Positions 916 through 63,988 of a DNA stretch of 64,000 bases are shown here, one piece after another. The stretch comes from an uncultured delta proteobacterium. GTDB taxonomy: Bacteria > Desulfobacterota > Syntrophia > Syntrophales > Smithellaceae. The stretch spans positions 58,577 to 122,576 of the forward strand of contig CAIVQG010000072.1 in NCBI GenBank assembly GCA_903907985.1, given 5' to 3'. Within the stretch, counting starts at the first letter, position 1; each line of letters opens with the position of its first letter. The notes under the pieces were generated by a model. It saw only the letters and a program-made list of their open reading frames with translations, was not told the DNA's origin and searched no databases. Made by a program: the position numbers and the translations under genes.

Positions 916-2159
916 TATCCGGCCCTCCTGCTGATGAGAAGTATGGCAATATCATCGGGTGGGCCGACGATATTATCTAGTCCCAGCTTTTCCGCGATCC
1001 CCTCAACTGTTGGATTGTCGCTGCCCGTAAGAAGCCCCGCTAGATATTCTTCCTTCTCCTTCAACGTTTCATGGGGAAGAATTTCCATAATGCCATCGGA
1101 AAAGAGAGCCAGATCGAATCGCTCCGGGAGGGAAATGGTCTCGGCATGGTATTCGGCATAAGGGAAGAGGCCTACCGGAACGTTTTTGCCCGCAATGAAT
1201 ACCGATTGTGTTCCATTCCTGAGAATGGGACTCGGCGCCTGGCCACCGTTGGCGTACAGGAGCGTGTTATCCTTTATGGACAGAACGCCATAGAAGATCG
1301 TCGCATATTTGCCAATTTTTTCACTGAGCAGGGCCCGGTTCAAAATATCGAGCAGGATGGTTGGTTTCAGGATGTCGTATTCCCTTCCCTGGGCAAATCG
1401 TCGGAGATAGCGGTTAATATGGCTGCGCAGAAGAACGGTCACAATCGCCGAAGACACGCCATGGCCGGAAACATCAACCATGTAAAAACCGGTATGTTCG
1501 TCGTCAATGATGAAGTAATCGATAAAATCCCCGCTCAGGTAAAGGGAAGGATAAAGGACGCGGCTGAAGCGATATGGTCCCCGTTCCTGGTGGTTATCGG
1601 GAAAGAGATGAAACTGCATTTTCCGGGCTGCCGATTCGCCTTCTTCAAGTCTCCGGAGACTCTCCGTCAACTGCCGGTTCGCTGTTTCGAGATGCTCGAG
1701 GTGTTCCCTGTTTTCCCTCAACAGACGGGCGCGTTCCAGAGCTTTTTCGACGGCGTGCTTTATGACCATGATACCTTCAACGGGTTTGGCGATATAATCC
1801 CAGGCACCCAATTTGAGGGCCTTGATCACATCGTCTATGATACCCGTTCCCGTCACCATGATGATGGGCATTTCAGGATATTCTTCAGTCACTGTCTGCA
1901 GGACCTGCATCCCGTCGATCTCCGGCATGCGTACATCACACAAGACAAGATCGGGATGTTCCCGGCGGCACATGTCAATACCGATACGGCCGTTTCCGGC
2001 TTCAATGACATCGTGGCCGATAATTTTCAGAAAATCGGACAGAACCGCCCGCACGGAATCATCATCGTCAATGATCAGAATCCTGGCCTTTGTTCCCATA
2101 GGATCTCCCTGATGATCCCCTGAAGAGCCAATGTGCGGGCAATTCACCTTCCCGCACAT
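915..2159 (-). CDS. Response regulator with C-terminal PP2C/SpoIIE (RsbU-type) phosphatase
   Basis: REC domain (ILIIDDDDSVRAVL...LVLCDVRMPEIDG...KP) followed by PP2C-type GDFIDYFIIDDEHTGFYMVDVSGHGVSSAIVTVLL...LFSDGIME. Confidence 0.9.
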   Translation of the reverse strand: MCGKVNCPHIGSSGDHQGDPMGTKARILIIDDDDSVRAVLSDFLKIIGHDVIEAGNGRIGIDMCRREHPDLVLCDVRMPEIDGMQVLQTVTEEYPEMPIIMVTGTGIIDDVIKALKLGAWDYIAKPVEGIMVIKHAVEKALERARLLRENREHLEHLETANRQLTESLRRLEEGESAARKMQFHLFPDNHQERGPYRFSRVLYPSLYLSGDFIDYFIIDDEHTGFYMVDVSGHGVSSAIVTVLLRSHINRYLRRFAQGREYDILKPTILLDILNRALLSEKIGKYATIFYGVLSIKDNTLLYANGGQAPSPILRNGTQSVFIAGKNVPVGLFPYAEYHAETISLPERFDLALFSDGIMEILPHETLKEKEEYLAGLLTGSDNPTVEGIAEKLGLDNIVGPPDDIAILLISRRAG

Positions 2160-2489
2160 CCGTAAGCATTTCCCTGTATACAGCCGCCGATCCTATTCAT
2201 CCCCGCCAATAGGACTGCGAGCTTTATTATACACCTTTTTTTAAAAAAAATGCTGCAATATTTCCGGAGAATTTCTTCCAATTTACTGGATAAGAACTTC
2301 CTTTGTGTGATAAAAAAACATAGCAATATCGGCCTTGTGCAATAGCGACCAGTCCGGCATGACCAAACAAACGTGAAATGTTTAGTAACATCAACTATAT
2401 CCGTGTTAGACCATCCGCTCGCAGAAAATTTTCATTAAATCTGCACCTGCTAAACTTCTTCCCAAAAGCTTCTTCATGAACCAAGCGGA

Positions 2490-6365: not shown

Positions 6366-8222
6366 TTGAAAAAATTAACACTTAAACTTGTATCCATCCA
6401 CATTAAGGACTCACCTCAGGCTGTCCCTCTGGCTGCAGCAGCACTTAAAGCACAGCTCGATTCAGTTGACTCCATAAACCGGAAGCTGGATGTATCATTT
6501 CATGATTACACTATTGATAACTCTGCTGATTTCATAGCGGAGGACATCTGCAGACATATTCCGGATATGATCGGTTTCTCGACATACCTGTGGAACAAGC
6601 ACTTGGTAATGGAAATCTGCCGGATCATCAAAGAGAAATTCCCGGCTGTATTACTCTTCGCCGGTGGCGCAGAGGCAACAGCACTTCCTTTAACACTGAT
6701 CGCCAGCGCACCATTTGACTTTATCATTAAAGGTGAAGGTGAGATCGTCCTGACCCAAGTAATGAAAAGGCTGCTGAACGCAGATCAACTCGACGGCATA
6801 CCCGGGGTATTTTTAAAAGGCGCAAAGCTTAATCCGGGAAAAGACCAGCAGCCCGTCATGGACTTAAACTCCCTGCCCTCGCCTTTTCTTTCCGGAACAA
6901 TGGACCCCAGCCGTTATTCCGGCTTATGGTGGGAACTCTCCCGCGGATGTCCTTTTAAATGCGGTTTTTGTTTCGAATCAAGGGGGGTGGCAGGCGTCAG
7001 GCAAATTTCGTCAGAACGCATCCGGAGAGAACTGGAGCTCTTCGAAGAAAAAAAAGTGACCCAGATCTTTGTGCTAGACCCGACTTTTAACTGTGATATA
7101 AAGCGCGCCAAAAACATTCTGCGTATGATACGCAAAACGGCTCCGCTTATTCATTATACTTTTGAAATAAGGACAGAGTTTATCGACCGTGAAATCGCCG
7201 GACTATTTGCTGCACTTCACTGCAGCCTCCAGGTTGGACTGCAGAGCGCTCATCCTGAAGTGCTCGCCCACGTCAACAGAACCATCGACCCCGTTAAATA
7301 CGCTAAAAAAATAGCGCTGCTGAACCAAGCCGGCGCCATCTTCGGACTGGACCTGATCTACGGGCTGCCGGGTGATACACCCGATGGATTTCAAGAGAGC
7401 CTGAATTATGCTCTGAGTCTGCAGCCGAACCATCTCGATATTTTTCCGCTGGCTGTTATACCGGGGACAGCACTTTATGATCAGGCGGAATCCTTCTTGC
7501 TGAACTGTCTAAAAGACGCGCCTTACACACTGATCTCCTCGCCGGGTTTTTCCGAAGAAGGAATGTCGCAAGCCGAAGATCTGAAAAATGCCTGTGAAAT
7601 ATTTTACAACCGCGGAGGCGCTGCGGGCTGGATGTTCATGGCATTGGAAACACTGGCCATTGATCCTGCTGACTTTCTTTCCGATTTTGCAGTATATATA
7701 TCTTCCTGGAAAGAAACGTTGAAGCTCACAAGAGAGGAGATTACTGTTCTGCAATCCTCTTTTGTCGAAGAGCAGTTCACCAAAAATAACAAGAAAAAAC
7801 TCTTTCCTGTAATGGATGATATAATAAAAATTCATGGTGCGCTGAACCGTTCGCTTTATGCCGGACCGCAAGTAAAGGCAGTCAGCAGCAGTTTTACTGA
7901 TGAAGCCGTGTTTAGTTTATCACCCGGAACTATTTCTCTTTCCTTAAAATATGATTTTGATGACCTTATGACTGTCGGCGAACTTACCTTTGAAGAGTTC
8001 CTTGATTCCTATTCCCCGCAGAAATCATACCTGGTTGTTTATAATTGCGGCGGCGCTGTTAAAACACTGACAATAGATATCACTTTAAGCAGGCTGCTGC
8101 GCTCGTTTACAGGTAGCGATTCCCTCCGGCAAATCTGCGGCAGAAATAAAATAGAAACCCGAAAGAAGATTTATGAATTTCTGAATTATGCAGTTAAAGA
8201 ACAGATAATCCAGATCCGGTAA
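6366..8222 (+). CDS. B12-binding-domain radical SAM protein
   Basis: 618 aa; N-terminal cobalamin-binding-like region, radical SAM motif CPFKCGFC, GLPGDTPDGF. Confidence 0.9.
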   Translation: MKKLTLKLVSIHIKDSPQAVPLAAAALKAQLDSVDSINRKLDVSFHDYTIDNSADFIAEDICRHIPDMIGFSTYLWNKHLVMEICRIIKEKFPAVLLFAGGAEATALPLTLIASAPFDFIIKGEGEIVLTQVMKRLLNADQLDGIPGVFLKGAKLNPGKDQQPVMDLNSLPSPFLSGTMDPSRYSGLWWELSRGCPFKCGFCFESRGVAGVRQISSERIRRELELFEEKKVTQIFVLDPTFNCDIKRAKNILRMIRKTAPLIHYTFEIRTEFIDREIAGLFAALHCSLQVGLQSAHPEVLAHVNRTIDPVKYAKKIALLNQAGAIFGLDLIYGLPGDTPDGFQESLNYALSLQPNHLDIFPLAVIPGTALYDQAESFLLNCLKDAPYTLISSPGFSEEGMSQAEDLKNACEIFYNRGGAAGWMFMALETLAIDPADFLSDFAVYISSWKETLKLTREEITVLQSSFVEEQFTKNNKKKLFPVMDDIIKIHGALNRSLYAGPQVKAVSSSFTDEAVFSLSPGTISLSLKYDFDDLMTVGELTFEEFLDSYSPQKSYLVVYNCGGAVKTLTIDITLSRLLRSFTGSDSLRQICGRNKIETRKKIYEFLNYAVKEQIIQIR

Positions 8223-8294
8223 TTTGGTCATATCATCCCGCCATGATAAATAATCACAATTAGTGGATGTCATGTTTTTTTGCTTATTTATTGT

Positions 8295-10436
8295 TTATTT
8301 TTGATGCGTCTTCTTCCGCCTCTCCTTTAAAAACAGCACCCTATCTGACAGCATTTTAAAAGCCCTTATGGCGCGACGCGGAGAGACGAATACCGGAATA
8401 CTATTCATTTCCAGTGCTTTCGTAAATTTATCTATAACTTCCTGATTTCCCCCCAGAAAAGCCCCAAACATTGGTTTTTTCGGATGAGCTTTTCTAATAG
8501 GTGCGATTATTTCGATCGGATCGAAGTCTGACTCCGGGATGAGAACAAAAACGAGTAAAATGGCATCAATGTTGTTTTGCTCGATAATTGCCTCGCTGAT
8601 AACTTTATAAGCCTCCGCTCCACCGGCTTTTTCAATGGCCGACCACATATCAACCGGATTTCTCAAAGGTGCCCAAGGGGGAGCTATCGTCCTGATTCTT
8701 TTTTCGGTCTCTGGTGTCAGCGCAGGCAAAATAATTCCGTATTCCGCAGCGGCATCTGCCGACATCACACACCCGACGCCGGTAATCGAAACGACTCCGA
8801 GACGATTCCCCTCTGGTAGCGGACAGAAGGAGAACACCTTTGCTGCTTCAAGAAGGTCCGGGAAATCATCTACTAGCGTCGCGCCACATTTTTCCAAAAC
8901 AGCGTTATAGACTGCGAAATCACCTGCCATTGTTCCTGTATGACTGGCAGTGGCCCTGCTCCCCTCAGTAGTCCGCCCTCCTTTTAAAACGATGAACGGC
9001 TTAGCGGCTGCCGCCTCGCTCGCCGCTTCAATGAACGCCGCCCCGTTGGCGGTGCCTTCAAGATAAGCAGCAATCACCCGTGTTTTCTTATCCCGCGTAA
9101 AATATTTAAGCAGATGTATTTCGTTAACATCGGCCTTGTTGCCGATGCAAGCTACTGCCGAGAGACGGAAATTTTCCCGCGTCGCTACAATATCCGCAGT
9201 TCCACTGGCGAAGACACCCGTCTGACCAAAAAGCGCAATGTCGCCTGATTCAAGCTTGTGCAGGGTCGTTATAGAAGTAACAAGTCCCAGAATCGGCGTT
9301 ATAGTTCCGATTGAGTTTGGCCCCAATACTCTTACACCAGCCTTTCTTGCTTTCTCTATGATTTTTGCCTCCAGCAAAGCGCCGTCAGCGCCTTGGTCGG
9401 AAAAACCTCCGCTGGCAATTATTATATTTTTCACACCTTTATCGATGCATTTTTTCAATTCCTTCTCGACAGCAATATTTGGAATAATGAATACGACGAG
9501 TTCAGGAACCTCTGGCAATTTGTCTATTGTCGCGAATGACTTCAATCCGCACACATCAGATCCGTGGGGATTAATAGGATATATTTTCCCCTTATAGTCG
9601 AATGTTAAAAGATTTTTAACTATGATATTGCCACCCTTGTGAGGCGAAGAACTAGCGCCAATTACAGCTATCGATCGCGCTTCGAAAAACCGAGATATGT
9701 CGGTAGAATAATCTTGCAGAACCGCTTTCTTCTGCTCCGTTTTTTGAAGAGTAACCAGTGCGTCAACTGCGCAGACTCCATCTTCGTTGGCAAATAGAGG
9801 ATTGATTTCAATTTCCCTGATTCGCCCGTCGGACTCGTATGCTGAAATCATTTTTTCAATTGTTTTAAATAGTCCCCTTACGTCAATCCCCTTCTTCCCC
9901 CTTGCTCCGAAAATCAGCTTAGCCCCTTTCAGAGTCTTAATCCGGTCAACAAAATCCGCGTAACCAATTGGAGGTATCAGAATAATCTTATCCGACAAGA
10001 TCTCCGTAAATATCCCTCCTATTCCAATTAAAGCTATCGGTCCGAAAACAGGATCGCGAACGATGCCGGCTATTAATTCCAATGACGGGAACTCCTGCTT
10101 CTCAATTAAAAACTGAGCGTCAGCAAGCCCGGTATTTTTTCTTATTCTCTTCAAGGCTTCGATCAGCTTTTTCTCGCTGTCGATTCCTGCCTCGATTCCC
10201 CCGCTGTCACTTTTATGCAGAAGGTTTTCTGATGAAATTTTTACTACAACCGGCATGCCAATTTTTCGGGCACACGCAAGGGCTTCCGCCTGATTTTGGC
10301 ACAGTCCACCATCAGGCACATTTATTCCAATTTCTCGCAAAAGCAACTTGGACTCATATTCGCTTAATGCTTGCCTGCCCTCATCAACATAACTATTAAT
10401 TATCTTACCAACTCGATTAATTTTAGACATCCTCAC
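8295..10436 (-). CDS. ADP-forming acyl/acetyl-CoA synthetase, fused, ATP-grasp domain N-terminal
   Basis: ATP-grasp (GMPVVVKISSENLLHKSDSGGI) then CoA-binding (SIAVIGASSSPHKGGNIIVKNLL) and ligase domain (RATASHTGTMAGD); ATG at 10430 is an alternative start. Confidence 0.9.
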   Translation of the reverse strand: MRMSKINRVGKIINSYVDEGRQALSEYESKLLLREIGINVPDGGLCQNQAEALACARKIGMPVVVKISSENLLHKSDSGGIEAGIDSEKKLIEALKRIRKNTGLADAQFLIEKQEFPSLELIAGIVRDPVFGPIALIGIGGIFTEILSDKIILIPPIGYADFVDRIKTLKGAKLIFGARGKKGIDVRGLFKTIEKMISAYESDGRIREIEINPLFANEDGVCAVDALVTLQKTEQKKAVLQDYSTDISRFFEARSIAVIGASSSPHKGGNIIVKNLLTFDYKGKIYPINPHGSDVCGLKSFATIDKLPEVPELVVFIIPNIAVEKELKKCIDKGVKNIIIASGGFSDQGADGALLEAKIIEKARKAGVRVLGPNSIGTITPILGLVTSITTLHKLESGDIALFGQTGVFASGTADIVATRENFRLSAVACIGNKADVNEIHLLKYFTRDKKTRVIAAYLEGTANGAAFIEAASEAAAAKPFIVLKGGRTTEGSRATASHTGTMAGDFAVYNAVLEKCGATLVDDFPDLLEAAKVFSFCPLPEGNRLGVVSITGVGCVMSADAAAEYGIILPALTPETEKRIRTIAPPWAPLRNPVDMWSAIEKAGGAEAYKVISEAIIEQNNIDAILLVFVLIPESDFDPIEIIAPIRKAHPKKPMFGAFLGGNQEVIDKFTKALEMNSIPVFVSPRRAIRAFKMLSDRVLFLKERRKKTHQK

Positions 10437-10505
10437 TTCACCTCTTTGCGAAAGACGTTGATTCTAATCTATTTGATTGATGATAACTTCCTTTTTGTGG
10501 TGGAA

Positions 10506-10534
10506 ACTATAGGAAACGCGGTTTTGCATGTCAA
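10506..10534 (-). promoter_or_regulatory. Sigma70-type promoter TTGACA-N17-TATAGT (family member A)
   Basis: Minus strand TTGACATGCAAAACCGCGTTTCCTATAGT, upstream of the acyl-CoA synthetase. Confidence 0.8.
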
Positions 10535-10654
10535 GGGAATCTTCTTTAACTAATGTTGGTACGGATGCTTGTCATGGGTTGTGAATTGCGTTTATTACCG
10601 ATTGAAGCCCGAAGCGGCAGCGCCGAATCAAACCGGACTGACCTCAGATCGGTA

Positions 10655-12007
10655 TTATTTTAATTCCAGTTGATTCGCCTTGTTATACTCAACACGTTCT
10701 TCATTATATTTGCCGAGAGCATGATAAGCCATACCGCGGCATTTATAAGCATATGCATTTGGGGGATTCAGTTCGATTGATTTAGTGTACTCAACAAGCG
10801 CTTCATTATATTTGCCAAGAGCATGATAGGCCATCCCGCGGTTGAGATAAGCATCTGCATATTTGGGATTTAGTTCAATTGATTTATTGTATTCAAAAAG
10901 CGCTTCAATATATTTACCAAGTATGTGATAGGTGACTCCGCGACTGTTATAAGGACCTGCATCCTTAGGATTCAGTTCAGTCGATTTATTATAATCAACT
11001 AATGCTTCATTATATTTACCAAGCACATGATAAGCCATCCCGCGGTTATTATAAGCATCTGCATATTTGGGATTCAGATCAATTGCCTTGTTGTATTCAA
11101 AAAGTGCTTCAATATATTTACCAATTATATGATAGGTAATTCCACGACTGTTATAAGGACCTGCATCTTGGGGATTCAGTTCAGTCGATTTATTGTAATC
11201 AGCGAATGCTTCATTATATTTACCAAGCACATGATAAGCCATCCCCCGGTTGTTATAGGCATCTGCATATTTGGGATTTAGTTCAATTGCTTTGTTGTAA
11301 TCAACAATTGCTTCATTATATTTACCGAGCAGATGATATGTAACGCCGCGGTTGTTATAAGCTAAATCAAACTTCGGATTTAATTCAATTGCTTTGGTGT
11401 AATCAGCAATTGCTGTTTTGAAATCACCTTGAATATGATTTTTATATCCACTTTCCAGCCATTCAAATGCAGAAAGTTCTTTTATTGACTTATCATATCT
11501 TTTTTGAACCTGCTGTTTTGCATTACCCTTTGCCAGTGCCAGTTCCTCTCTCAGTTTCTTGTTCTCTTCCAATATAGCATCTGCTCTCTTCTTGGTTTCC
11601 TCCAGTTCCCGTGATTTATCACGGTCTTTACGGAGATTGTCTATTGATTTGATCACATCATTTTCATCTGCGACGATCTTTGTTTTTATCCAATATTTTT
11701 CACCATTCCATTTTTCATCTATAATCTCAGTCTTTACTATACCTGCTGTTAATGAGGTAATCTGATCTTTTGTAAGTTGAAAATTCTTCACTTCAGTTAT
11801 ACTTTCCAGATATGTTCCCAACTCTTCCAAGAGTAGTCTTTTCACTTCTCTCATTGCAGTAACACGACTGGAGTTTCTGCTATCATCTTCACTTGCCTGA
11901 TAGGTGTATTCCTTGATGAATATCTTTGTTTCGGCAAAAGCACAATTTGGAATTAATAAGATAAGCAGAAAAGAGATCAATGTACTGCGTGTTAGTCTGG
12001 ATTTCAT
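10655..12007 (-). CDS. Exported TPR-repeat protein
   Basis: Signal peptide MKSRLTRSTLISFLLILLIPNCAFA; about eight 34-aa TPR units (YNNRGMAYHVLGKYNEALVDYNKSTELNP etc.). Confidence 0.9.
   Translation of the reverse strand: MKSRLTRSTLISFLLILLIPNCAFAETKIFIKEYTYQASEDDSRNSSRVTAMREVKRLLLEELGTYLESITEVKNFQLTKDQITSLTAGIVKTEIIDEKWNGEKYWIKTKIVADENDVIKSIDNLRKDRDKSRELEETKKRADAILEENKKLREELALAKGNAKQQVQKRYDKSIKELSAFEWLESGYKNHIQGDFKTAIADYTKAIELNPKFDLAYNNRGVTYHLLGKYNEAIVDYNKAIELNPKYADAYNNRGMAYHVLGKYNEAFADYNKSTELNPQDAGPYNSRGITYHIIGKYIEALFEYNKAIDLNPKYADAYNNRGMAYHVLGKYNEALVDYNKSTELNPKDAGPYNSRGVTYHILGKYIEALFEYNKSIELNPKYADAYLNRGMAYHALGKYNEALVEYTKSIELNPPNAYAYKCRGMAYHALGKYNEERVEYNKANQLELK
10840..11275 (-). repeat. 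204-bp higher-order tandem repeat (two 102-bp TPR units per period)
   Basis: The block beginning gcttcaatatatttacca recurs 204 bp apart (about 10903 and 11107) with near-identical flanks. Confidence 0.8.
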
Positions 12008-12332
12008 TGATATGAACCTCTCTAAAATAATTATATTTTAATACATCTTTGATAAAGACGTAGCAAGGTATTTAATGATTGTCGTTCGAAAGGACACCTG
12101 GCAGCAAAAATCCCGCCTGTTCTATTTCAGGAAGGACCGAACAAAATTTAATCACTGATTTTTCAAAATCACTGAACCGGCGGAAACGCTTACTGCACTC
12201 ACAATCAAACGAAAGGCGAGCGGCATATCCAACCGACAAATTGCTATTTAGTCGGCAATGGGGACACCTGGTTCTGGCACGATTCTGTTATATAGCCTGT
12301 CCCTACATTGCTATTGCAGAGCGTGAAGTGGA

Positions 12333-12677
12333 CTAGGGTATATTGTGTACTTGGCCGTCCGTATCGTAACAAGTAAGTTCTCCCGAAAATGAGCTTCCGT
12401 CCGCCGGGTAACACGTCCAACATTTGCCCTTGCAATCTGAGGCATACTTCTCATTACACTCGTTGGCATATTTGGCATAATTCGTATGTTTGCAATCATC
12501 ACATCCCAACGGAAAATAAAAGCATTGCCCCATAGATACTTTGCCCGCGCTGTTTTTGGAACCTCTGTCTTTCATGCAGTGCAATGTTTTATCTGAGCAT
12601 TCGGCGTAACTATAAGGTCCACAAAATACAGTAACAAAAGCCAAAACAATAATTAGACATCCAAATAATCTTTTCAT
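12333..12677 (-). CDS. Cys-rich exported hypothetical protein
   Basis: Signal peptide MKRLFGCLIIVLAFVTVFCGPYSYAE followed by many Cys residues. Confidence 0.6.
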   Translation of the reverse strand: MKRLFGCLIIVLAFVTVFCGPYSYAECSDKTLHCMKDRGSKNSAGKVSMGQCFYFPLGCDDCKHTNYAKYANECNEKYASDCKGKCWTCYPADGSSFSGELTCYDTDGQVHNIP

Positions 12678-12741
12678 TTTCGTTCTCTTCTGTAGGGGCA
12701 GAGCACTATGTAGTCACCAAGGTCCATCATTTTCTATATTC

Positions 12742-13128
12742 TTAATCTGCTACTTTCTCAAGATAGCCTATTCCTTCGCAGGTCGCAAGATCAATATCTA
12801 CGACACAGCGGAGGTTAACGGAATTTAATTTAGTATCACCGACTAAGCGCACCTTACCTCTGGCTGTTTCAAAATTCCCATTAGAAAAGATGCAGTACCG
12901 ACGATCCAGTTGAACACTTACTTCTGTACCAGTGCTCTTAAACGTTACATGGACATAGTCTCTGCCGATACATTCTTTTAGCGCTTTCGCTGTTTTTTCA
13001 GGCCGTACCGTTTCTATAGTTTGTGGTAGCTTCAGTCTTTCTATCAGCAAGTCCAAGGCAAAGCCAGAGAGGGAGAAGCTGCAACAAAATACGCATATCG
13101 CCAGAAGGGAAAGAACTTTGATTTTCAC
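12742..13128 (-). CDS. Exported hypothetical protein (start revised to GTG at 13128)
   Basis: Signal peptide VKIKVLSLLAICVFCCSFSLSGFA; GAGGAG SD just upstream; a promoter at 13177-13205 lies inside the longer ORF call, arguing against 13239 as start. Confidence 0.65.
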   Translation of the reverse strand: MKIKVLSLLAICVFCCSFSLSGFALDLLIERLKLPQTIETVRPEKTAKALKECIGRDYVHVTFKSTGTEVSVQLDRRYCIFSNGNFETARGKVRLVGDTKLNSVNLRCVVDIDLATCEGIGYLEKVAD

Positions 13129-13176
13129 AATGAACTCCTCGCATGATTTCTTTAAGAACTTCCTTTTGTGGGATGA

Positions 13177-13205
13177 AGCATAAGAAACGCCCTTTCGTAT
13201 GTCAA
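13177..13205 (-). promoter_or_regulatory. Sigma70-type promoter TTGACA-N17-TATGCT (family member B)
   Basis: Minus strand TTGACATACGAAAGGGCGTTTCTTATGCT then CCCACAAAAGGAAGTTCTT. Confidence 0.78.
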
Positions 13206-13332
13206 GGTAATCTTGTGCGTAATGCGTGCAGGTGCACAAGAATGTGTGTTAAAAAGTATTAGATGAAAAGCCCGGCTTGGCCTGGGGCAGCAAATTGACG
13301 GTAATTCCAGGTATTGCTACCCAACGCCAGGA

Positions 13333-13830
13333 TCAGCGGGCCACGCAACGGACTGCATAGCAGGGGTTATAGCGATTGGCCTGGGCACTGCCGCCGTTAC
13401 AGTTGTATGCATCGGCATTGTCCCATCCTTCGTTGAATGAGCCGGACCAATAATACTCCCCGTGAAAATTCGGCAGGACTATCCGCCGACCTCCATCATT
13501 ACAATTATGAAAATCCTGTTTTGATGGCAAGGTACCACCCAACTTCGCACAGATTTGCATACCGTCAAATTGGCTGGCAATGGTGATGCGATCGCCCCAG
13601 ATCACTCCATCCGGCGCCCTCCATGCCTCGCCGAAACCGGAACGCTCAACGCGTTCGAAGATCCACCAATTCTCTACACTGCATCTGAAGCCAACTGCTA
13701 CGGTACGAAGGTTGACATTATGGCAATCCGGAAGACTCGAGGCCGCCCACGTTGAACTCTGGCTCACGCTCAACAAGAATGCCGCCAGGATTACTGTTAG
13801 CCCTAGTCGAGTTGATATCGTCTTATTCAT
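13333..13830 (-). CDS. Exported hypothetical protein, DUF1566/Lcl-C-like
   Basis: Signal peptide ...VSQSSTWAA; LPSKQDFHNCNDGG...GEYYWSGSFNEGWDNADAYNCNGG. Confidence 0.6.
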   Translation of the reverse strand: MNKTISTRLGLTVILAAFLLSVSQSSTWAASSLPDCHNVNLRTVAVGFRCSVENWWIFERVERSGFGEAWRAPDGVIWGDRITIASQFDGMQICAKLGGTLPSKQDFHNCNDGGRRIVLPNFHGEYYWSGSFNEGWDNADAYNCNGGSAQANRYNPCYAVRCVAR

Positions 13831-14090
13831 AGGTCTCTCCTTTGAGGTCGCTTTCCTAATTCAATTACCAATTTCCCAAGATCGTCGAACGTGCTGATCA
13901 GAGGCGGCTGAGGCTGTCCGTTGCCTAACATGTTTACGAGAGGTACTCCATCAATAATTCAATACATCCCGTTGTTCATCAACTTTTTCCTTGATGATTG
14001 TAAATCCATAACAACGCTAATGGCGGCGGGAAATGGAATAGAGGGTGGCGGAATGATACGATCAGCCCGACTGGTTGCCGGAGGAATAAA

Positions 14091-14993
14091 TCAGCTTTTC
14101 ATCCCTGCTACAAGCCTGATCTGGGCGCTGAGGTTGGTGAGGTAGGCGTTCCGCTCCTGCTTGATGACGCCGCGTTCGTCGTACTCCTTTCTCACCATGG
14201 TCAGGGTGGCCTGCTCAATGTCGCTATTGGCCTGGTCAAGATAAGACTCGATGAGCGTGCGGAAGGCCGGCGTGGCGGCCAGCGAGCTGCGGATAAAGTC
14301 AGCTGCATCGTCATCCGTAAGAACACAGCCGTGGCCCAGGCAAAGGTATTGTGGCTGGAGTGAAATGATCTTTTCCAGGGACGCGAGGTAGTCGTCATAG
14401 GAGGTGAGGAAGCAAGCCTGGATGCCATTGCCTTCCTTGCCCTCGGGAAGACCGGCTGCCTCGCCCGCGAAGATGGTCCTGATCTCGGGGAAATAGAAAG
14501 CGAGTGAATCCTTTGTGTGGCCCGGCACCTCGTAGACATGGCAGGTGAGCCCGCCCAGGTCTATCTCGTCGCCATCCTTCAGTATATGCTCGGTCTCCAT
14601 GGTTGTGATGGTGACATCCTCGTCAGCGGTGATGTCCTTGAAAAAACCGCGCTGCACATCACTCAGACGGTTCATCATGGCAATGACCGAATCTTTGCGC
14701 ATGAGTGCGCTTACGCGCTCGTGTGCACCGAGACCGAGTCCGGGTATCATGCGCTTCAGGTATGGGGCCGCGCCCAGGTGGTCGTAGTGGGAATGGGTAA
14801 CGAAGAGAAAATCGAGCTTCTGCGAATCTCCCAGGATAGTGCTGACATCTTTCATATAGAGAGGACCCATGAGGTTCATGCCTGCCTCGATCATGAGGCT
14901 CTTCTCCCTGCCCCGCATCACATAGCCGGGATAGTACGGATTTCCTGCCACATGGATGTGGTCATTGATGCGTCCTGTTGCGAGCTGCTTCAT
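14091..14993 (-). CDS. MBL-fold metallohydrolase
   Basis: VTHSHYDHLGA, VPGHTKDS, LCLGHGCVL metal-binding motifs. Confidence 0.9.
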   Translation of the reverse strand: MKQLATGRINDHIHVAGNPYYPGYVMRGREKSLMIEAGMNLMGPLYMKDVSTILGDSQKLDFLFVTHSHYDHLGAAPYLKRMIPGLGLGAHERVSALMRKDSVIAMMNRLSDVQRGFFKDITADEDVTITTMETEHILKDGDEIDLGGLTCHVYEVPGHTKDSLAFYFPEIRTIFAGEAAGLPEGKEGNGIQACFLTSYDDYLASLEKIISLQPQYLCLGHGCVLTDDDAADFIRSSLAATPAFRTLIESYLDQANSDIEQATLTMVRKEYDERGVIKQERNAYLTNLSAQIRLVAGMKS

Positions 14994-15426
14994 GGCATTC
15001 TTTCTCCTGGAGGAATTATCATACGGAAATCGGTACCATATTCACATGGATTTCATCAAGGTGAGAATTCTAAAGACTGAGGATATCTAGATATTAAGTT
15101 GCTATATTCTGGATATGTAATTTCGGCGGAAGCATATAAGACTTGATTTATCATGGCATGCATTTTTACTTCATCAATCTAACTGTTAGCTATTTCTACA
15201 GCATAATTGACACAAAATAAAGTACCTGTTATTGATCAGTTCGTAATGTTGCCTGCTGATAAAAGTGTGAAAAAAACGACATGACAGCAAGACATTCATG
15301 ATGTTGGACAAATTAATACACTTTTACTGTACAAAATAAGCCTGACCAAACTTCAGTATAAATCCGGTCCCCTAGATATATTCCTCATGCCGGAGGCTAA
15401 CCTTTGCGTAATGCAGGTATATTTGT

Positions 15427-16500
15427 CTACAATTTTTCGTTTCCGCACATCCACCTCGGAGGTGATGGAAAATACGGCACTTCATTTAGCTTCAGATCAT
15501 ATCCGAGTATCGATCCCTCATTTTTGATTTCCAGTTGCGTTTTGCAGAAAGCACAATATTCACCGTAGAGTCTACTGATCTTTTCATATCCAGGCTGGTT
15601 TAGAAGTGTCTTCCCGGCAGGAGCACCTCCCATCCGACATGCATAGACGACAGGTATGCCGACTACCGTGAGACCGTCAGCGATCTGCACAAGAGAAACC
15701 GTGCCATAATCGATGCCGATTCCCAAGCCAACATTTGTGGGCATCGAAACGAACGAACTCCGGAATTCATAAAATTTCTCCTGGAAGACCTTGTGACAGA
15801 GATCGGCGGTAGTGATCGTATAATAACCGGCATCTTCACCGGAGAAAAAATCTGGGAAAAAGGCGAGAATACCGTCGCCGGTAAATTTATCAAACACGCC
15901 GTAATGTTCCTTGACGATAGATTCAAGGTCTTTACATAGTTCTGTCATAAAGTGTGCATATTGATATGGACTCCGGGCCTTGAACATTAGTTCCGTAGAC
16001 CGCCTGATATCAGCTGACAGCACAAAAGCATTGCATTCCTCGGCCTCCAGGAACTGCTTCTGGAACTCACCGGACTCGAGAAGAAGCTTTTGTGCAAATT
16101 CATTTACCCGTGTGAGAAGAAAGCTCAGCCTTTCCTTCTCGGAGAGTTGACATATTGTTGATTGCAATTCTTCAATGGCTTTGGTTCTTTTCTCGTTGTT
16201 TCCGACAATGTCAAGTATTTCCGATGCCTTGTCTTCTACCGAGCGGCGTAGGTGGGCGATTGCCTCATCAAGTTTACGAGCCTTGGCGACAATTTCCCCG
16301 TCGAAATGATTTATCTTAGAGGTTGGATTGATATTCTGTAGGTAATTGACGAGATTTTGTCTTATATTAAAAATCAAGTCCTTCCTAGCATCGAATTCAA
16401 CAATCACCGACAGCAACTGCTCTACGGCGCTTTTTCCTCTGTGAGAGGATTTCAATGTACTTGCCCCTTCTTTTGTATATTCAACTAAGTGATCCACCAT
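15427..16500 (-). CDS. Class III adenylate/guanylate cyclase-domain protein
   Basis: AFVLSADIRRSTELMFKA...GVFDKFTGDGILAFFPDFF typical of class III cyclase catalytic cores. Confidence 0.8.
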   Translation of the reverse strand: MVDHLVEYTKEGASTLKSSHRGKSAVEQLLSVIVEFDARKDLIFNIRQNLVNYLQNINPTSKINHFDGEIVAKARKLDEAIAHLRRSVEDKASEILDIVGNNEKRTKAIEELQSTICQLSEKERLSFLLTRVNEFAQKLLLESGEFQKQFLEAEECNAFVLSADIRRSTELMFKARSPYQYAHFMTELCKDLESIVKEHYGVFDKFTGDGILAFFPDFFSGEDAGYYTITTADLCHKVFQEKFYEFRSSFVSMPTNVGLGIGIDYGTVSLVQIADGLTVVGIPVVYACRMGGAPAGKTLLNQPGYEKISRLYGEYCAFCKTQLEIKNEGSILGYDLKLNEVPYFPSPPRWMCGNEKL

Positions 16501-16743
16501 ATATATCGATCTCTCTTTATGTGTTTATGCCATTATTATTGAAAAAGCATTTACGAACCTTCACTGCAACTTGGTTAAGAATAATTCCTAACGGGGGCGA
16601 TAATTATTTCAGTTAGTGAGGCCGAATTTATTGAAAAAGTCAATATAAAAAGCCCATTGATATCCATTTGAAAGGATGCATGAAAGTCAGAATTGTCACA
16701 TGCTTGACTTCAAGGAAGGAAGAAATAGATCATTTGCCGTACT

Positions 16744-17805
16744 TTATTGCTTAGCAGGTATCCGTAAATCCCTCTTCAAGAATCCATCCACCAGCTCTCT
16801 GAGCTTATCCGACTCGCAGAGGAATGCCAGATGCCCGCAATCACCGGTCAGTTCCGCTGTTTCAGCTTTCAGGAGCCGGGCAAATGTCCTGGCGGGCTCC
16901 GGGTAGATGATCTGATCCTGTGTGGTCGAGATGATCATGGCTTCAGCATGCACGGCTTTCGCCGCCCTTTCTGATGAGCCATCAAATTTCTTAAGAATGT
17001 CCTGATTCATGATGGCCTTCACCTGCCAGGCCCAGTCGGTAGGATTGTATTTAAGGAAGCTCTTTTCCAGATTGCTAAGAAACTCGGGAACCGCAGCGGG
17101 CCTGGTTGCCGCTACGCGGAAACGGGGGGTCCATAAAAGCAGGGCATGCATCGGAGCCAGAGCTTTCATCGCGGAATGTCCATTTTGGCAACTACGGACA
17201 TTCTCGATAACAGCCAATTCGGCGGACCAGACAAGCAGGTCATTGGAGGTCATCCAGGGCGACCCGGCGATCGGAATTACCTTGTCCATAAAATCAGGAT
17301 ATAAAACCATCCACTGGAAAGCCTGCATCCCGCCCAGTGACATTCCGATCACAGCGTGCAGGCGGTGGATATTCAGATGCCGGGTCAAAAGTAAATGTTG
17401 AGCACGGACTATATCACTTATGGAGAATTGAGGGAAAGCCCGGTCCGGTTGCATAGCACTGTTGGAGGGAGATGACGATACGCCATTGCCCAACGAATCG
17501 ACGGCAATTATGTAATACTTGGAACTGTCGATTACTTTTCCGGGGCCAATGATTCCCAGATCGATAAGTTCTTGCGAAGTTCCTGCCAGCCAGGTCGGAA
17601 TCAAAATCGTGTTGGACTTTTGCGGGTTAACTTTCCCGAGGATGCGGTAGGCCAGCCGGCATTCCTTGATGACCGCTCCGTTCTCCAACTGAAAATCACC
17701 CAGATCTGCATGACGAAGGTTTTCATCGCCCCAGACGGCGCCCCATATCAAGAGCAGCATTGCACTCACAAGGATAATCTGAATCCGTCTTTTTTTAAGC
17801 AGCAT
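16744..17805 (-). CDS. Exported alpha/beta hydrolase, homoserine O-acetyltransferase-like
   Basis: LHAVIGMSLGGMQAFQW nucleophile elbow; N-terminal signal/TM segment; GDCGHLAF catalytic His. Confidence 0.8.
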   Translation of the reverse strand: MLLKKRRIQIILVSAMLLLIWGAVWGDENLRHADLGDFQLENGAVIKECRLAYRILGKVNPQKSNTILIPTWLAGTSQELIDLGIIGPGKVIDSSKYYIIAVDSLGNGVSSSPSNSAMQPDRAFPQFSISDIVRAQHLLLTRHLNIHRLHAVIGMSLGGMQAFQWMVLYPDFMDKVIPIAGSPWMTSNDLLVWSAELAVIENVRSCQNGHSAMKALAPMHALLLWTPRFRVAATRPAAVPEFLSNLEKSFLKYNPTDWAWQVKAIMNQDILKKFDGSSERAAKAVHAEAMIISTTQDQIIYPEPARTFARLLKAETAELTGDCGHLAFLCESDKLRELVDGFLKRDLRIPAKQ

Positions 17806-17886
17806 ATTGGCATCCCTATATTTGATCTGACAATTCCATCCCGAATGATTATAAATTCAGAACGTTCTTTAAGTGAAGTTCAAGGC

Positions 17887-17926
17887 GGTAGAAACTTGCG
17901 ACTTCGAACTGGTAAAAAATTGCGAC
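17887..17926. mobile_element. IS21-like terminal repeat remnant
   Basis: Two copies of GGTA(G/A)AAA(C/A)(T/A)TTGCGAC-like sequence with 24-bp period: ggtagaaacttgcgac / ggtaaaaaattgcgac; no transposase ORF nearby. Confidence 0.45.
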
Positions 17927-17998
17927 ACAAGGTCAGTTACAGAAAAAACTGCTTACCGACTCCATCAAACACTCCATGCAACTAAAGCGGAAGTGAGA

Positions 17999-19933
17999 TC
18001 ATTTCGCCAATGGCGCAAAAGTAACCAGAATTTGCGGACTGTATTGATCATCGTAAAACTTTATAATCCTGTTAAACGTGCTATCCGGCTTCGGCGTTCC
18101 GTCAGACATCAATTGGCGTGAGGTCATCTCCGCCTTGATCAAGGAACTCTTTACCTTTTCCCCCCTCAGTTGGTATATCACCAAGCCATCTCCAGCAAAC
18201 TTCTGTGTCTCTTGTTGATCTAAGGGTGTAGTTGCTATTTGGATTAATGTTTTCACATCGCTTATGCCTTCTTCGATGTAGTACTCTTCAATCTTCAGAT
18301 TCAGAATGCTTTTTCCGTCCGCTGCAATAGCGCCCTCGACTTTCAGAGTGGCACGTTTATTTACACCGTTTACGAAACCTTTCCCCTCGACAAGGGCTGA
18401 AAAAGCGTTCCCGGCCCATTTAAGAAACTTTTTCTCTACACCAGGCTGTGCGAAGAATAACATGTGCGGGACATGAATGTTTTCCCAGAGTTTCCGGGTC
18501 TCTCCTTTGCCTGAAGTCTGCATGATGGGACCGTATGCATTTACTCCTAACCGTACCGTCGCCTTCAGTTTTTGCAGAATTTCCACGCTTAACCCATCAA
18601 AGTCTGTCTTATCGGCCGATGGAACATCATCGGCTTTGGCCGCAGATGTTGTCATGGCGTACTGGAGATCTGGAGCACCGTAATTGCCGATTGTCTCCAA
18701 CTTAAATTTGCAGGCCTCCCCTGATCCCTTGATGCGCCAGGGCTGCGTTGATGATGCCTGCCCTGCAGCTATACTGGGTATTTTTTGAATTGCCTGTTGT
18801 GGATCAACCGGACAGTCCGCGGAGGTAAGGCGGGCTTCTATATCGCGAAATTCCGCATTTCCCTTATTCGACACCTTTCCTCGTACAACAAGGTACTCAC
18901 CTTCCTGCGTTGATTCAATCGACGGCCTGATGGCAGTCAGAGATGCACGCCATACCGTTGCCACCGCCTGAATGGCGTTATTGATAGCGGGTTCGGGGTT
19001 ATCAAAATAACTTGTTATGCGGGAATATGTTTCCGTAGCTGAAGACACGGTCAGTCTCCGCACTTGTTCGGCCTGAGACATCCAAGGTTTATCGAAGGTT
19101 TTCGGGGCATTCTTCCATGAAGGATCATAACCGGAAAGTCCGGTACCAGTGTGGCCTATCGTAGTTTCCCATGCAATGTGACTTGAGGTTTCCGACATGG
19201 CCAATTCGGTGTCGCCGTTGTAGTACCAAGGGTCAAACCAGTCTTCGTTAGATTTGGTGAGATACCGGGTCACTTCCGTATTGAAATTGTTGCTGAGAAA
19301 TTTCACCGGCGTCAGGTATGCAAGCTTTACCGAGCCCTTGATTTCATCCGGAAGATAGATGCTGTCCTTGTGCTTCGTATTCTGTTCTTCGTAGATGGCC
19401 TGAATCGTTGCCCGGTCGGCTCCTATCACATGATATGGGCAGAACATATCGGACAGGTAATGGGCACCCCATGCAGCAGCCTTAGGCAAGGCTTCTTTTT
19501 TTGAGGTCAAAATACCTTCGGCAAGGTAACGGTAGTAACGGCTGATCGAATCCGGCGCACCACCCCTTCCCAGTTTCGGATTGTAGTAATGCTCAGAAAA
19601 ACTTGATGCCCCTCTGCTGTCCGGTCCGGGGCCGGAAAGAACGTTGTAATCAACACCAAGACCGATATAACCTTCGCCCGTCCACTTGTATCGCGCCCAC
19701 ACAACACCTTCGTGATTGATGATTTCCTCGAGGGTGGGAAATAGTTTTGGATCAAAGGCAGGATCGGCACTCAGCTTCTTATAGGCCTGCTGGAGGATGT
19801 ACTGGTGAGTCTGCGCTGGTGCGAGTGATCCCCAGGCATGTGCTGCAACGGGAACAAGGAATGTCATGAGCATAAATATACAGAAGAGAATAATTACAGT
19901 TTTCCCGAAGTTAATTATGAAATGCTTTTTCAT
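17999..19933 (-). CDS. Exported zinc-dependent phospholipase C / S1-P1-nuclease-like protein
   Basis: Signal peptide ending AAHAWGSLAPAQTHQYILQQA; AAAWGAHYLSDMFCPYHV His/Asp motif typical of zinc-dependent PLC fold. Confidence 0.7.
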   Translation of the reverse strand: MKKHFIINFGKTVIILFCIFMLMTFLVPVAAHAWGSLAPAQTHQYILQQAYKKLSADPAFDPKLFPTLEEIINHEGVVWARYKWTGEGYIGLGVDYNVLSGPGPDSRGASSFSEHYYNPKLGRGGAPDSISRYYRYLAEGILTSKKEALPKAAAWGAHYLSDMFCPYHVIGADRATIQAIYEEQNTKHKDSIYLPDEIKGSVKLAYLTPVKFLSNNFNTEVTRYLTKSNEDWFDPWYYNGDTELAMSETSSHIAWETTIGHTGTGLSGYDPSWKNAPKTFDKPWMSQAEQVRRLTVSSATETYSRITSYFDNPEPAINNAIQAVATVWRASLTAIRPSIESTQEGEYLVVRGKVSNKGNAEFRDIEARLTSADCPVDPQQAIQKIPSIAAGQASSTQPWRIKGSGEACKFKLETIGNYGAPDLQYAMTTSAAKADDVPSADKTDFDGLSVEILQKLKATVRLGVNAYGPIMQTSGKGETRKLWENIHVPHMLFFAQPGVEKKFLKWAGNAFSALVEGKGFVNGVNKRATLKVEGAIAADGKSILNLKIEEYYIEEGISDVKTLIQIATTPLDQQETQKFAGDGLVIYQLRGEKVKSSLIKAEMTSRQLMSDGTPKPDSTFNRIIKFYDDQYSPQILVTFAPLAK

Positions 19934-19960
19934 ATCTGATCCGTCCTTTTTGTAGTAGAA

Positions 19961-19989
19961 ATTATAGGAAACGCCGTCTTGTATGTCAA
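19961..19989 (-). promoter_or_regulatory. Sigma70-type promoter TTGACA-N17-TATAAT (family member C)
   Basis: Minus strand TTGACATACAAGACGGCGTTTCCTATAATTTCTACTACAAAAAGGACGG. Confidence 0.85.
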
Positions 19990-20081
19990 GGCAATAGTAC
20001 CGGCATTACGGCTGGTCAATTTCAGCGCAAATAAAAAGCAAAACAGAAATGGGAAGCGCGCATCAATTTACCAGATCGTTA

Positions 20082-23000
20082 TTATTGTATCTGATACAGC
20101 GGATAATCCTTGCCGAAATTAATAATCAGCGGGGTCTGGCTGTGGCCTATTTGTTTTGAAATATCAGTAGTTGCCTTTTTCGTGTGTTCTCCCAGACTGA
20201 TTACGCTTACTTCATTGCCCTTACCGCCTGTGGCCTGACGGTTGTTATTCAAACCGTTTAGCAGATTATAGGTGAAAAGACCATTGCCTTTGAAGCCATC
20301 GAGCGCCGTTTGTTTGTCGTTAGCCGAGGCGTAAATATGCAGTCCCATTTTTTTTGCCAGCACGGAAATGCGTGCGTCGTAAAGACCGCTGACAATGTAA
20401 TCAACTCCGCCAGCATGGCATGTATCGAAAATCAGCAGTTGGTTCAAGGATTTTATTCTTTTGGACATCTCAACAATTTCATTGGAGCTAATCAGGATTT
20501 TTTCGTTTACATCGCCCTGATAATCATGAGTGAGCATATAATACTGATTATGCAGAAGAACGCCGTGGCCAGCCACAAAAAGGATAAAACCATCACCCGG
20601 TTTAATAATGTTCACCAGTTCATCAATTTTACCGATGATGTTTACCTTTGTTGCGTCATTGTCGGCAATCAGCCCCGCATGGATATTTTCCGGCCGATAC
20701 AGGCCCGCAGATTGCCTCACCAGCATATTTCTTATATCATCCGCATCTTTTTTCGCATATTTCAAATTAATTTTGTTGTCCAGATATTTGTCAATACCGA
20801 CGGCCAGAATATAAAGATGAGGGACCTGAGGCGGCAGTGATGAACGGAAACTGACCGATTTCATCACGCTTTGCACTGTATTGTTGCCGTTAAAGGACGA
20901 GATGCTAATTTCATTTTCGCCCGGCACAGCGTCTATTTCTCGGCAGGCTTCGTAAATATCGCCTTTGAGATTACTTTTTATCGGGCTGGGCGCATCTTTT
21001 CCCTTAATTTTTATACTGCGCATTTCCGCATATATCGCCTTGCTGTTAACGGCGGCAATTTGCATTTTGGGAGCTGTTTTAGCGGCATCACGGTAGAAGC
21101 CATCGGAGTGAACCAGTTTGCCGTTATGAAACAAGCGAACCTCGCCGATACCGCCACCCGTATTGTTTATCTGATAACAGGCCTTGACGCGTTGCTCATG
21201 AGCGGGGAAACCGGCATTGGTAAATTGCACATCCGGGGGCGGATTTTTAACGGCTTCGGCGATTGTCAGTGTAATCAGGGCGCTAATATCTTCACCCTTT
21301 AATTTTGCGGCGACAATATCCGGACGATAGAAAACATCATAAAACTGATCTATACCGAAAATGCTGTTGCCCATACGCAAACTTAAATGTTTGTGACCGT
21401 TAGGCGATGAATTGTAATAGCCTTCGGGAGTAATGACAACCCATTCTCCATCTTTAAAACCAATGAACTTTGCCAGTTCGCGACCGCTGGCGATATCCCA
21501 TATTCTGGTTGTCGCGTCAAAAGCGCCGGAGATAATTTTCGTTTCATCAGGCGAAAATGACGCCGCATTGACCCAGGCCGTATGTCCGATAAACGTCTTG
21601 ATTTCTTTCCCGGTCTGAACATCCCATAATTTAACCGAATAGTCTCCGCAGGCGGATAGGATCATTTTGCCGTTTTTGGAAAAAACGACCGAGCTGACGC
21701 TTCCCGTATGGCCGGTGAGCGTTTTCAGCTCAGCGCCTGTGGCAACATCCCACAGGCGGATTGTTCTATCGGAACTTCCGGATACGATGTATTTTCCATC
21801 CGGCGAAAATGCGGCACAGAAAATAGCGCCCGAGTGACCCTTAAATATTTTTATTTCTTTTCCGGTCTGTACATCCCATACCCTGATGGTGCTGTCTTTG
21901 TTGCCCCATGCTTTGCCGCCCGCCGAGAGGGCGTATTTGCCATCCGCGGAGAAAGAGACGGCGTTGATTTCACTTTCATGTCCGGCAAATCTCTTCAATT
22001 CCTTCCCCGCAGCAACATCCCAGATTTTTACCAGTTTGTCGCCGCCGCCCGAAATAATTAATTTTTCATCGGGAGAAAATTGCACAGCGTGGTTTCCGAG
22101 GAGAAACTTTTCGTCAATAAAATATTTTTTCACTTTTCCATCCGCGGCATTCCAGATGATAATTGCACCTTTTTCACCTTCCGCGCGTGAAAGCACACTA
22201 CTACCGTCACGGGAAAATAATGCATTTTTAACTATACTTTTCAAATATTCATAGCGTTCCTTTTCCTCTTTAGAGTCAATAGTCCACCGGAAACGGAAAC
22301 CGGACGTTTGTTTGCCTGTCTCGATATCCCAGAGTTTAACACTCCTGTCTTCACTGACGGACAGCGCCTGTTTGCCTGCGGGAGAAAATGACGCCGCATA
22401 AACCCAGGAGGTATTGCCGGTGAGGGTTTTGAGCTGGATGCCGGTCGCCGCATCCCAGACTTTAATAGTGCGGTCTTCACTTCCGGAGACAAGGTATTTG
22501 CCGTCGCGGGAAAATGACGTGTCATAAATAAGAATGGAATGGCCGGTAAATGTCATAATTTCACTGGCGGAAAAAACATCCCAGAGGTGGAAGATGCGGT
22601 CTGTTCCCACAGTAAGCACCCGGCGGGCATCCGGCGAAAAAGCCACACGGGAAACTTCATCAGGTTTAACAGAATATGATTGGATTTGGCGGCCGGTAGC
22701 TTTTTCCCAGACACTAATGTAAGTTTTTTCATTGACCGCCATAACATATTTGCCGTCCGGTGAAAAAGCAACTGCCTTCGTCCAGCCGGGCTTGCCTTGA
22801 TAAGCTATAATTTCTTTGCCGGTCTCTACATCCCAGAGCCGCAAAATACCGTCCTTGGAAGCGGACAAAATATTTTTTTCATCGGGAGAAAAAACCAAAC
22901 CGGTAACCGCTTCAACATTGCCGTTAAGAGCGCGAATTTCCCGCCCCGATGCGGCATCCCAGATTTTGATAGTTTTATCGGAGCTTCCCGTTATAACGAT

Positions 23001-23774: not shown

Positions 23775-23790
23775 GACACACCTCATAAAA

Positions 23791-26592: not shown

Positions 26593-26675
26593 GGAGACAA
26601 TTTCGCTATTGTTACCACTGAATCATTGGCGGGTTCAACAAATTATCCGACAAGAACTACGCTATAGTGCAGGAG

Positions 26676-26704
26676 ATCATAGGTAGCACTGTATGGTGAG
26701 TCAA
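26676..26704 (-). promoter_or_regulatory. Sigma70-type promoter TTGACT-N17-TATGAT
   Basis: Minus strand TTGACTCACCATACAGTGCTACCTATGAT upstream of the nucleoside deoxyribosyltransferase gene. Confidence 0.65.
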
Positions 26705-26801
26705 GACAATCTTGACAAAAAGCGGCGGGTATTGACCATGCTCGTCGCAGCTAAACTCTCTGTTCCAACATGGTCACCGTATATTGCCCGTCCATGTCAA
26801 T

Positions 26802-49650: not shown

Positions 49651-49939
49651 GGTTATGCCTCCATTCTTTAGTTTGATCAGATATTGCGGCGGATGTATAC
49701 GAACATTCAGTATTGTATGTCAAGGAAATCTTGACCACCGTCAAATGCTGCTTATCACTTCAAATCAGCAACTTTAATCTACCATGCCAATATGTGTGTT
49801 ACAAAGCAATTTCATATCTTTAAAGATGCACTATTTTATAAGCAGCATACTAAGCACTTAAAAACTGCTTGGATGTCTCTATGATCAGTGATATTTATAA
49901 AAACATCCTGATCTGAAGACTCGATTATTTGTGAGCATC

Positions 49940-55012: not shown

Positions 55013-55195
55013 AATCTCTGCACCGTGCCTGGTTAATTGTGCGGTTGATGTTTACTCAACAGTCTAACTGAAAATTGATTTTAAAGATTAACTTAAAACA
55101 AGTCAATGAAAAATATAGGTGGATGAGAAACAGAAATGCTGATCACTGTCCAAAGACAGCGCCGCCGCACCCAGTATTTAGCGGGTACGATTGTC

Positions 55196-55224
55196 TTGAC
55201 TTACCAAAGCGCGTTTCCTATACT
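55196..55224 (+). promoter_or_regulatory. Sigma70-type promoter TTGACT-N17-TATACT (family member G)
   Basis: TTGACTTACCAAAGCGCGTTTCCTATACT upstream of enoyl-CoA hydratase gene. Confidence 0.82.
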
Positions 55225-55348
55225 GCATTCCATCAAAAGTAATATCTTATCAAACGGGCGCCCGAAAAGGTATGCGTTGGAAGTTGAATTTCTTCATTAA
55301 CATCAATCGTGAGTGATCAATTGCGGCTTGAAGAAGGGAGACAGTTTT

Positions 55349-63591: not shown

Positions 63592-63627
63592 CTTCAGCGA
63601 TTAATTAATATTCCCACTTAGTTAATG

Positions 63628-63656
63628 AGTATAGGGAAACATCCGTTGTCTGTCAA
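63628..63656 (-). promoter_or_regulatory. Sigma70-type promoter TTGACA-N17-TATACT (family member K)
   Basis: Minus strand TTGACAGACAACGGATGTTTCCCTATACT upstream of the GGDEF gene. Confidence 0.8.
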
Positions 63657-63988
63657 CGAAATATCCGTTAAAAATGTAGAAATATCCTTGGTTTCACTAT
63701 CCTTATAGTTCTAGGGGCACTAAAGATAGAGCCGGAGCACATTTCGTTTATTCTATTTATTTTGAGCCGTTTTTATATTGTTTTTCACATTTCGTTCAAC
63801 CCATTTGAACATTTCATTTAAAGAAACAGAGAAGATGAGGGCAAGTCATATTTATCCGGGCTGCCCATCAGCGATTATTGTCCTGTATTATCATGATGTT
63901 ATAAAGAATTGTTTGATCTTCTGGTTTTTGGCACGATACTTCCAATAGAATAAGGCAAAACAAACAGACTCTCAGGAGGTCACAGATC

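Follow-up and report, generated by a model that had tools for sequence, protein, structure and literature searches.

The Module and Its Copies in the Window

Four strong copies of a promoter-like module lie upstream of genes in the window (the whole stretch of 64,000 nt considered here), and these are listed in Table 1 with their downstream genes, their weaker relatives and other features. All four have the form TTGACA-N17-TATANT, with GCGTTTCC preceding the -10 box (GCGTTTCT at 13.2 kb), as a sequence-only reading of this DNA had noted. Four of the five promoters grouped together by that reading therefore stand, while the fifth, 5' of a GGDEF gene, is a partial match with neither leader nor upstream homology, and its membership in the family appears doubtful. 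The leader claimed to be common to three of the loci is exact only at 10.5 kb and is present as variants at 13.2 kb (TCATCCCACAAAAGGAAGTT) and 19.95 kb (TTTCTACTACAAAAAGGACGG); that at 55.2 kb has diverged (CCATCAAAAGTAATATCTTATCAA). The leader continues to TTCTTATCAA, where the repeat has a sharp edge, and conservation is found upstream of the -35 box as well (CCACATTTTGTGG...AAGATTTCC). At 19.95 kb, the leader text AAAAAGGA falls about 10 nt 5' of the ATG of the downstream gene, for which it may provide a ribosome-binding site.

The window was also searched with R1, a model of sequence alone built from an alignment of 23 copies. Two weaker copies came to light beyond those previously listed. 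The one at 49.7 kb has upstream text (GATTTGAAGTGATAAGCAGCAT) in common with the copies L097 and L098. A decayed leader reported near 2290-2320 is indeed present and is possibly the remnant of a right end (as defined below), though R1 gives it no score.

Table 1. Copies of the module and other features of the window, with tandem partial ends found elsewhere. Positions are those of the window unless a contig or locus is named; scores of copies are from R1, the E-values of which are rough.
Feature	Position	Strand	Score	Sequence	Downstream gene or remark
Right-end copy, 10.5 kb	10476..10545	-	64.0 bits, E 5e-19	TTGACA 10534-10529, N17, TATAGT 10511-10506; leader extends to 10476	ADP-forming acyl-CoA synthetase-type (by Pfam), ORF 8295-10436
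Right-end copy, 13.2 kb	13151..13216	-	55.4 bits	promoter 13177-13205	short exported hypothetical, GTG start ~13128
Right-end copy, 19.95 kb	19942..20000	-	53.6 bits	promoter 19961-19989, perfect TTGACA-N17-TATAAT	ORF 17999-19933
Right-end copy, 55.2 kb	55184..55254	+	60.1 bits	promoter 55196-55224	enoyl-CoA hydratase/isomerase, ORF 55313-56146
Decayed right-end copy, second subfamily, 49.7 kb	49673..49736	-	24.5 bits, E 1e-6		short ORF, presumably resembling a SWIB-domain protein (judged by eye)
Decayed right-end copy	26649..26716	-	21.1 bits, E 1e-5		
Promoter-only match (doubtful member)	63627..63663	-	15.9 bits, E 5e-4	promoter 63628-63656	GGDEF gene
Leader-only remnant (possible)	2295..2308	-		ACACAAAGGAAGTT, continuing CTTATCC; 1 mismatch	
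Tandem partial end	G000:C51:154552-154667	-			
Tandem partial end	C6:26-135	-			
Tandem partial end	L160, about 2000-2035				
ZMP/ZTP riboswitch RF01750	30491-30571	+	40.3 bits		barely above gathering score
Protein of many WD40 repeats	20082-23786	-			1234 aa
TPR-repeat protein	10655-12007	-			

Distribution of the Family

To place these copies in a wider context, the whole 3.4-Mb genome (G000; 83 contigs, with contamination estimated at 4.5%) was searched for a 29-mer with 23 fixed bases, allowing at most three mismatches, and the reversed pattern served as control. The pattern was found in 27 places and the control in none, and so the association of GTTTCC with these promoters, questioned as a possible effect of chance, holds up. 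R1, with its rough E-values, found 115 places at E<=1 and about 80 at E<1e-3, the best copies having E near 1e-18. The observation is real, genome-wide and far larger than the five loci originally noted; statistics within the genome rest on 70 loci.

Among 99 genomes of this order, 96 have R1 matches, as many as 49 or more in a single genome. For a sample of 297 genomes from the phylum, the number with matches is 78; Desulfosarcina and other named genomes gave either no matches or weak ones only. Since matches are absent or nearly absent in three of the 99 members of the order that were searched (G055, G071 and G073), the module is not a general feature of the order's sigma-70 promoters.

Edges and Structure of the Right End

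When 82 copies are compared in pairs, their homology reaches as far as about 300 bp upstream and ends at +58 to +62, counted from the start of TTGACA. Conservation is rigid from -28 to +59, leader included, and in an alignment anchored on AAAAGSAAGTTC the information remains high as far as TTATCAA, beyond which it drops from 1.56 to 0.2 bits. A sharp 3' edge of this kind is what the terminus of a mobile element looks like. The terminus reads, in order, CCACAtttTGTGG, AAGATTTCC, TTGACAYACAAGA, N, TATACT, AAAAAGGAAGTT and CTTATCAA, and there it stops. Two short hairpins are kept within it, CCACA-N3-TGTGG and CTTG-ACAYA-CAAG. The -35 box lies inside the second, which explains why the ACAAG part of the spacer is conserved; the GCGTTTCC part, which differs from one intact element to another, is the mark of a subfamily that is abundant in G000. 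The conserved spacer, earlier put forward as a possible signature of a regulator, is on this evidence attributable to shared ancestry and to the hairpin containing the -35 box.

Ordinary sigma-70 promoters, alike by chance or through the preferences of RNA polymerase, would also have the canonical -35 and -10 boxes seen here. The length of the conserved region, with its leader and sharp 3' edge, the empty control search and the genomes in which the module is all but missing speak against this explanation, and the extended homology among copies refutes it, leaving it next to no probability.

Rfam has no match at the module. A riboswitch or other RNA structure in the leader was considered and rejected: there is no conserved pairing, and hairpins occur only upstream of and at the -35 box.

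Tandem partial right ends, in which an extra -10 box and leader form a "tail" directly after a complete end, were encountered three times (Table 1); they might be the product of repeated insertion or of incomplete rolling-circle rounds. There is also a second subfamily of right ends, consisting of L097, L098, L120 and window positions 49673-49760, that has in common the upstream text GTTGCTGATTTGAAGTGATAAGCAGCATCTG, which is absent from the profile of the IS91 3' region. This subfamily is possibly a non-autonomous derivative.

The Parent Element

The module is found in relatives attached to a transposase gene. At L160 (genome G276) it follows a 451-aa protein that matches PF04986 (Y2_Tnp; E 4e-21) and PF14319 (Zn_Tnp_IS91; E 2e-20), and the proteins at L175 and L176 likewise have Y2_Tnp and IS91 zinc-binding domains. 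Inspection of the L160 protein reveals NPHCH at 178-182 and RYYGYYSN near 319-326, the HUH motif and the predicted catalytic tyrosine region, respectively. Its relatives occur in 54 of the 99 genomes, many as fragments with stops. When the places of transposases and modules were compared, the module was repeatedly found 164-200 bp 3' of the transposase gene and on the same strand (G036:C440, G009:C160, G012:C94, G019:C31, G036:C57, G061:C4, G009:C14, G036:C374 and G067:C215).

Aligning near-intact copies yields an element of about 1.7 kb. Its left end (CTTGACAAYAGAACGnnCGTTCTACTA) carries the transposase promoter, the gene follows, and the right end reads TTGACAYACAAGA...TATACT...AAAAAGGAAGTTCTTATCAA. 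In intact elements, ~165-190 bp separate the gene from the module. The two ends differ from each other, the one with the two hairpins being the 3' end, downstream of the transposase. Pairwise homology sets the left boundary at CTTGACAAYAGAACG; the right boundary, relative to the first base of the -35 box, falls at +58 to +62, ending ...GGAAGTTCTTATCAA. Complete outward -35 and -10 boxes are present in the intact ends of L160, L176-L179, L181, L182, L193, L196 and L197. Position and sequence identify the module as the 3' (oriIS-side) terminus of a rolling-circle insertion sequence of the IS91 family, with which the element shares transposase domains, HUH-like and YY-type motifs, and asymmetric ends with hairpins. 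This bears out, and makes specific, the earlier suggestion of a dispersed mobile promoter repeat.

Insertions of IS91 adjoin GTTC/CTTG-type tetranucleotides, without target duplication. The right end considered here closes with TTATCAA, apparently not with such a simple neighbor, and the left end begins CTTGACAA; a search for an empty site that would separate target from element found none.

The left end puts the transposase behind a GAACN4GTTC palindrome (L160, L175-L178 and L182). The same promoter layout stands in relatives before genes for Y-family polymerases (PF00817) and LexA-like proteins (PF00717) (L205-L214), the LexA-like N-terminus of the latter being judged by eye. Because the layout is common to all three kinds of gene, SOS control probably extends to the transposase.

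Orphan Ends

Domain and protein searches of the window's own genome found no transposase, neither a match to PF04986 nor a protein match, and hence no sign here of an active parent. The copies in the window are orphan ends, not elements, and most copies, in contrast to typical IS91, consist of the last ~60-300 bp alone, without transposase. Remnants of the transposase 3' region nonetheless persist, in collinear order, at some copies in this genome. A profile of that region, excluding the module, was run against the DNA upstream of the copies and found a match at L113 (216 bp; E 2e-39) and also at L110, L123, L106 and L100, as compared to one match with E=1 for the reverse-complement control. 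At L107 (E 4e-5) and weakly at L230 (E 0.014), C-terminal codons of the transposase adjoin the promoter, a layout that suggests what a deletion would leave. Across the 99 genomes, copy number rises with presence of the transposase (rho 0.40, p 3e-5; Fisher p 0.001), a relationship that phylogeny may confound. Synteny between window positions 8000-20900 and three congeners was too poor for comparison with empty sites.

The genome has at least 27 right ends and, at comparable strictness, no left ends. Miniature elements (MITEs) were considered as well and ruled out, since the copies share the right end alone.

The interpretation that I consider very probable is that the copies are orphan oriIS-side ends of IS91-family elements, which lost the transposase and were domesticated as sigma-70 promoters of the genes downstream. 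The transposase presumably reads the two hairpins of the right end, and because the second contains the -35 box, the right end would work as a sigma-70 promoter directed outward. Members of the family would have inserted many times within the order, and with the loss of transposase genes from this genome about 80-115 right ends would have been left as orphans. These may have arisen when the remainder of an element was deleted, when an insertion was truncated, or from non-autonomous copies, of which L097, L098 and the copy at 49.7 kb are perhaps examples. Nearly all of these lie before a gene in the direction of the promoter, for which they would now act as promoter, transcription starting at the copy, and the hexamers are retained as the hairpin arms and other positions drift.

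Evidence for Use as Promoters

Domestication may be set against the idea that the copies are neutral relics, leftover ends that carry promoter-like text by accident and without function. Their IS origin is indeed clear, and the purging of insertions into coding sequences would enrich for intergenic sites. Neutral relics, however, would be expected to point toward a gene in about one case out of two. The orientation of the copies is strongly biased: 55 face a co-directional gene among the 58 intergenic copies for which a downstream gene was called by a home-made caller (p=2e-13). Neutral decay would also not favor the hexamers over other positions, yet in decayed copies the -35 and -10 positions are kept at 93-94%, as compared to 79-80% under score-matched neutral decay (P<0.0005), while positions belonging only to the hairpins are kept at 63-64% against an expected 74%, with other positions likewise below expectation. 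Unrelated promoters may be present among the weak copies, and a second run limited to copies with leader, intended to exclude these, gave the same outcome. Neutral relics are thus highly improbable. Since the hexamers are kept even in decayed copies, the copies have most likely been recruited as gene switches.

A different view of the same conservation is that the module defines a host regulon, as the sequence-only reading had proposed in one of its alternatives: spacer, leader and upstream palindrome would be bound by a transcription factor, and a host promoter of this kind would have been captured at the end of the IS91 element. The CCACA-N3-TGTGG palindrome does lie at a plausible position for an activator, and the mimicry of a host LexA-type promoter by the left end gives a precedent for capture of host regulation. 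Comparison with G003, of the same genus, provides evidence in both directions. Three modules (three shared orthologues among 30 loci) precede orthologous genes in the two genomes, one for an Fe-alcohol dehydrogenase with 95% amino acid identity and two others with 78% and 84%. Identity within the pairs is 94% for the hexamers, 82% for the leader and 62% for upstream DNA, and this conservation of the leader in vertically inherited copies exceeds what promoter function alone explains. Most copies within the genus, on the other hand, precede different genes, as expected from turnover, and the downstream genes are functionally mixed. Homology in some copies extends 200-300 bp upstream, into IS sequence, and the CTTG/CAAG arms are lost in older copies. 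I regard a regulon of this kind as very unlikely, as much so as neutral relics, and prefer domesticated IS91 ends.

The leader may still matter in another way. It is conceivable, though on the doubtful side, that the oriIS end is the order's standard promoter cassette and that its leader AAAAAGSAANNTCTTATCAA (+38 to +59 from the start of the -35 box) confers some common post-transcriptional or regulatory property. If so, an insertion sequence would have built a real co-regulated gene network.

Three genomes belonging to one genus (G018, G046 and G024, with loci L130, L142 and L143, respectively) have the module at the same gene, for a TPR protein. Module and flank are 94% identical between L142 and L143, and the three are an example of vertical retention.

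Relation to Known Mobile Promoters

In ISCR1, a relative of IS91, two outward promoters in the oriIS region (PCR1-1, TAAACG-N17-TAAGAT, and PCR1-2, TTCGGA-N18-TTTATA, together termed POUT) raise expression of adjacent genes 13- to 15-fold (PMC6218425), and complete outward promoters have been attributed to ISCR-like elements in general in a review (PMC9330008). The principle is therefore already known. The module resembles POUT in being a predicted outward sigma-70 promoter in the oriIS end, 3' of a rolling-circle transposase gene and directed toward the neighboring gene. It differs from it in that ISCR1 is a single type of element driving recently captured resistance genes, whereas here dozens of orphan ends per genome precede chromosomal genes throughout an order, and in that its near-consensus promoter is set within a terminal hairpin that is conserved. 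A limited literature search found no description of an order-wide stock of chromosomal promoters supplied by orphan IS91 ends, nor of a -35 box embedded in a terminal hairpin, and both the scale and the embedded -35 box look new relative to ISCR1. The transposases of ISCR1, ISCR2 and ISCR8 are under SOS control via a LexA box at the terIS end (PMC13393415). A LexA-type box is similarly placed in the transposase promoter of the present element, but it is GAACN4GTTC, matching the promoters of the relatives' host LexA-like and Y-family polymerase genes.

Promoters repeated before unrelated genes have been termed mobile promoters by Matus-Garcia et al. (2012, as cited in PMC8049555). The module is like these putative mobile promoters in that a single genome has it in front of many unrelated genes, and unlike them in that the vehicle is identified, the copies are often 65-80% alike, and they are spread order-wide.

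Insertion sequences are known for activating single neighbors, often on resistance plasmids, and here the putative promoters number in the dozens per genome across an order. Their signature of domestication can be measured (hexamers kept, transposition hairpin lost), and they offer a countable system for the birth of bacterial promoters from mobile DNA. They also call for caution, since a motif that emerges from promoter mining may reflect transposon ancestry and not a regulon.

Other Features of the Window

Three further features of the window are listed in Table 1. The riboswitch match is marginal. The WD40-repeat protein is of a size unusual for a bacterium, and congeners yield several WD40-like DNA matches. 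The TPR-repeat protein shows strong internal repetition and has related copies in congeners.
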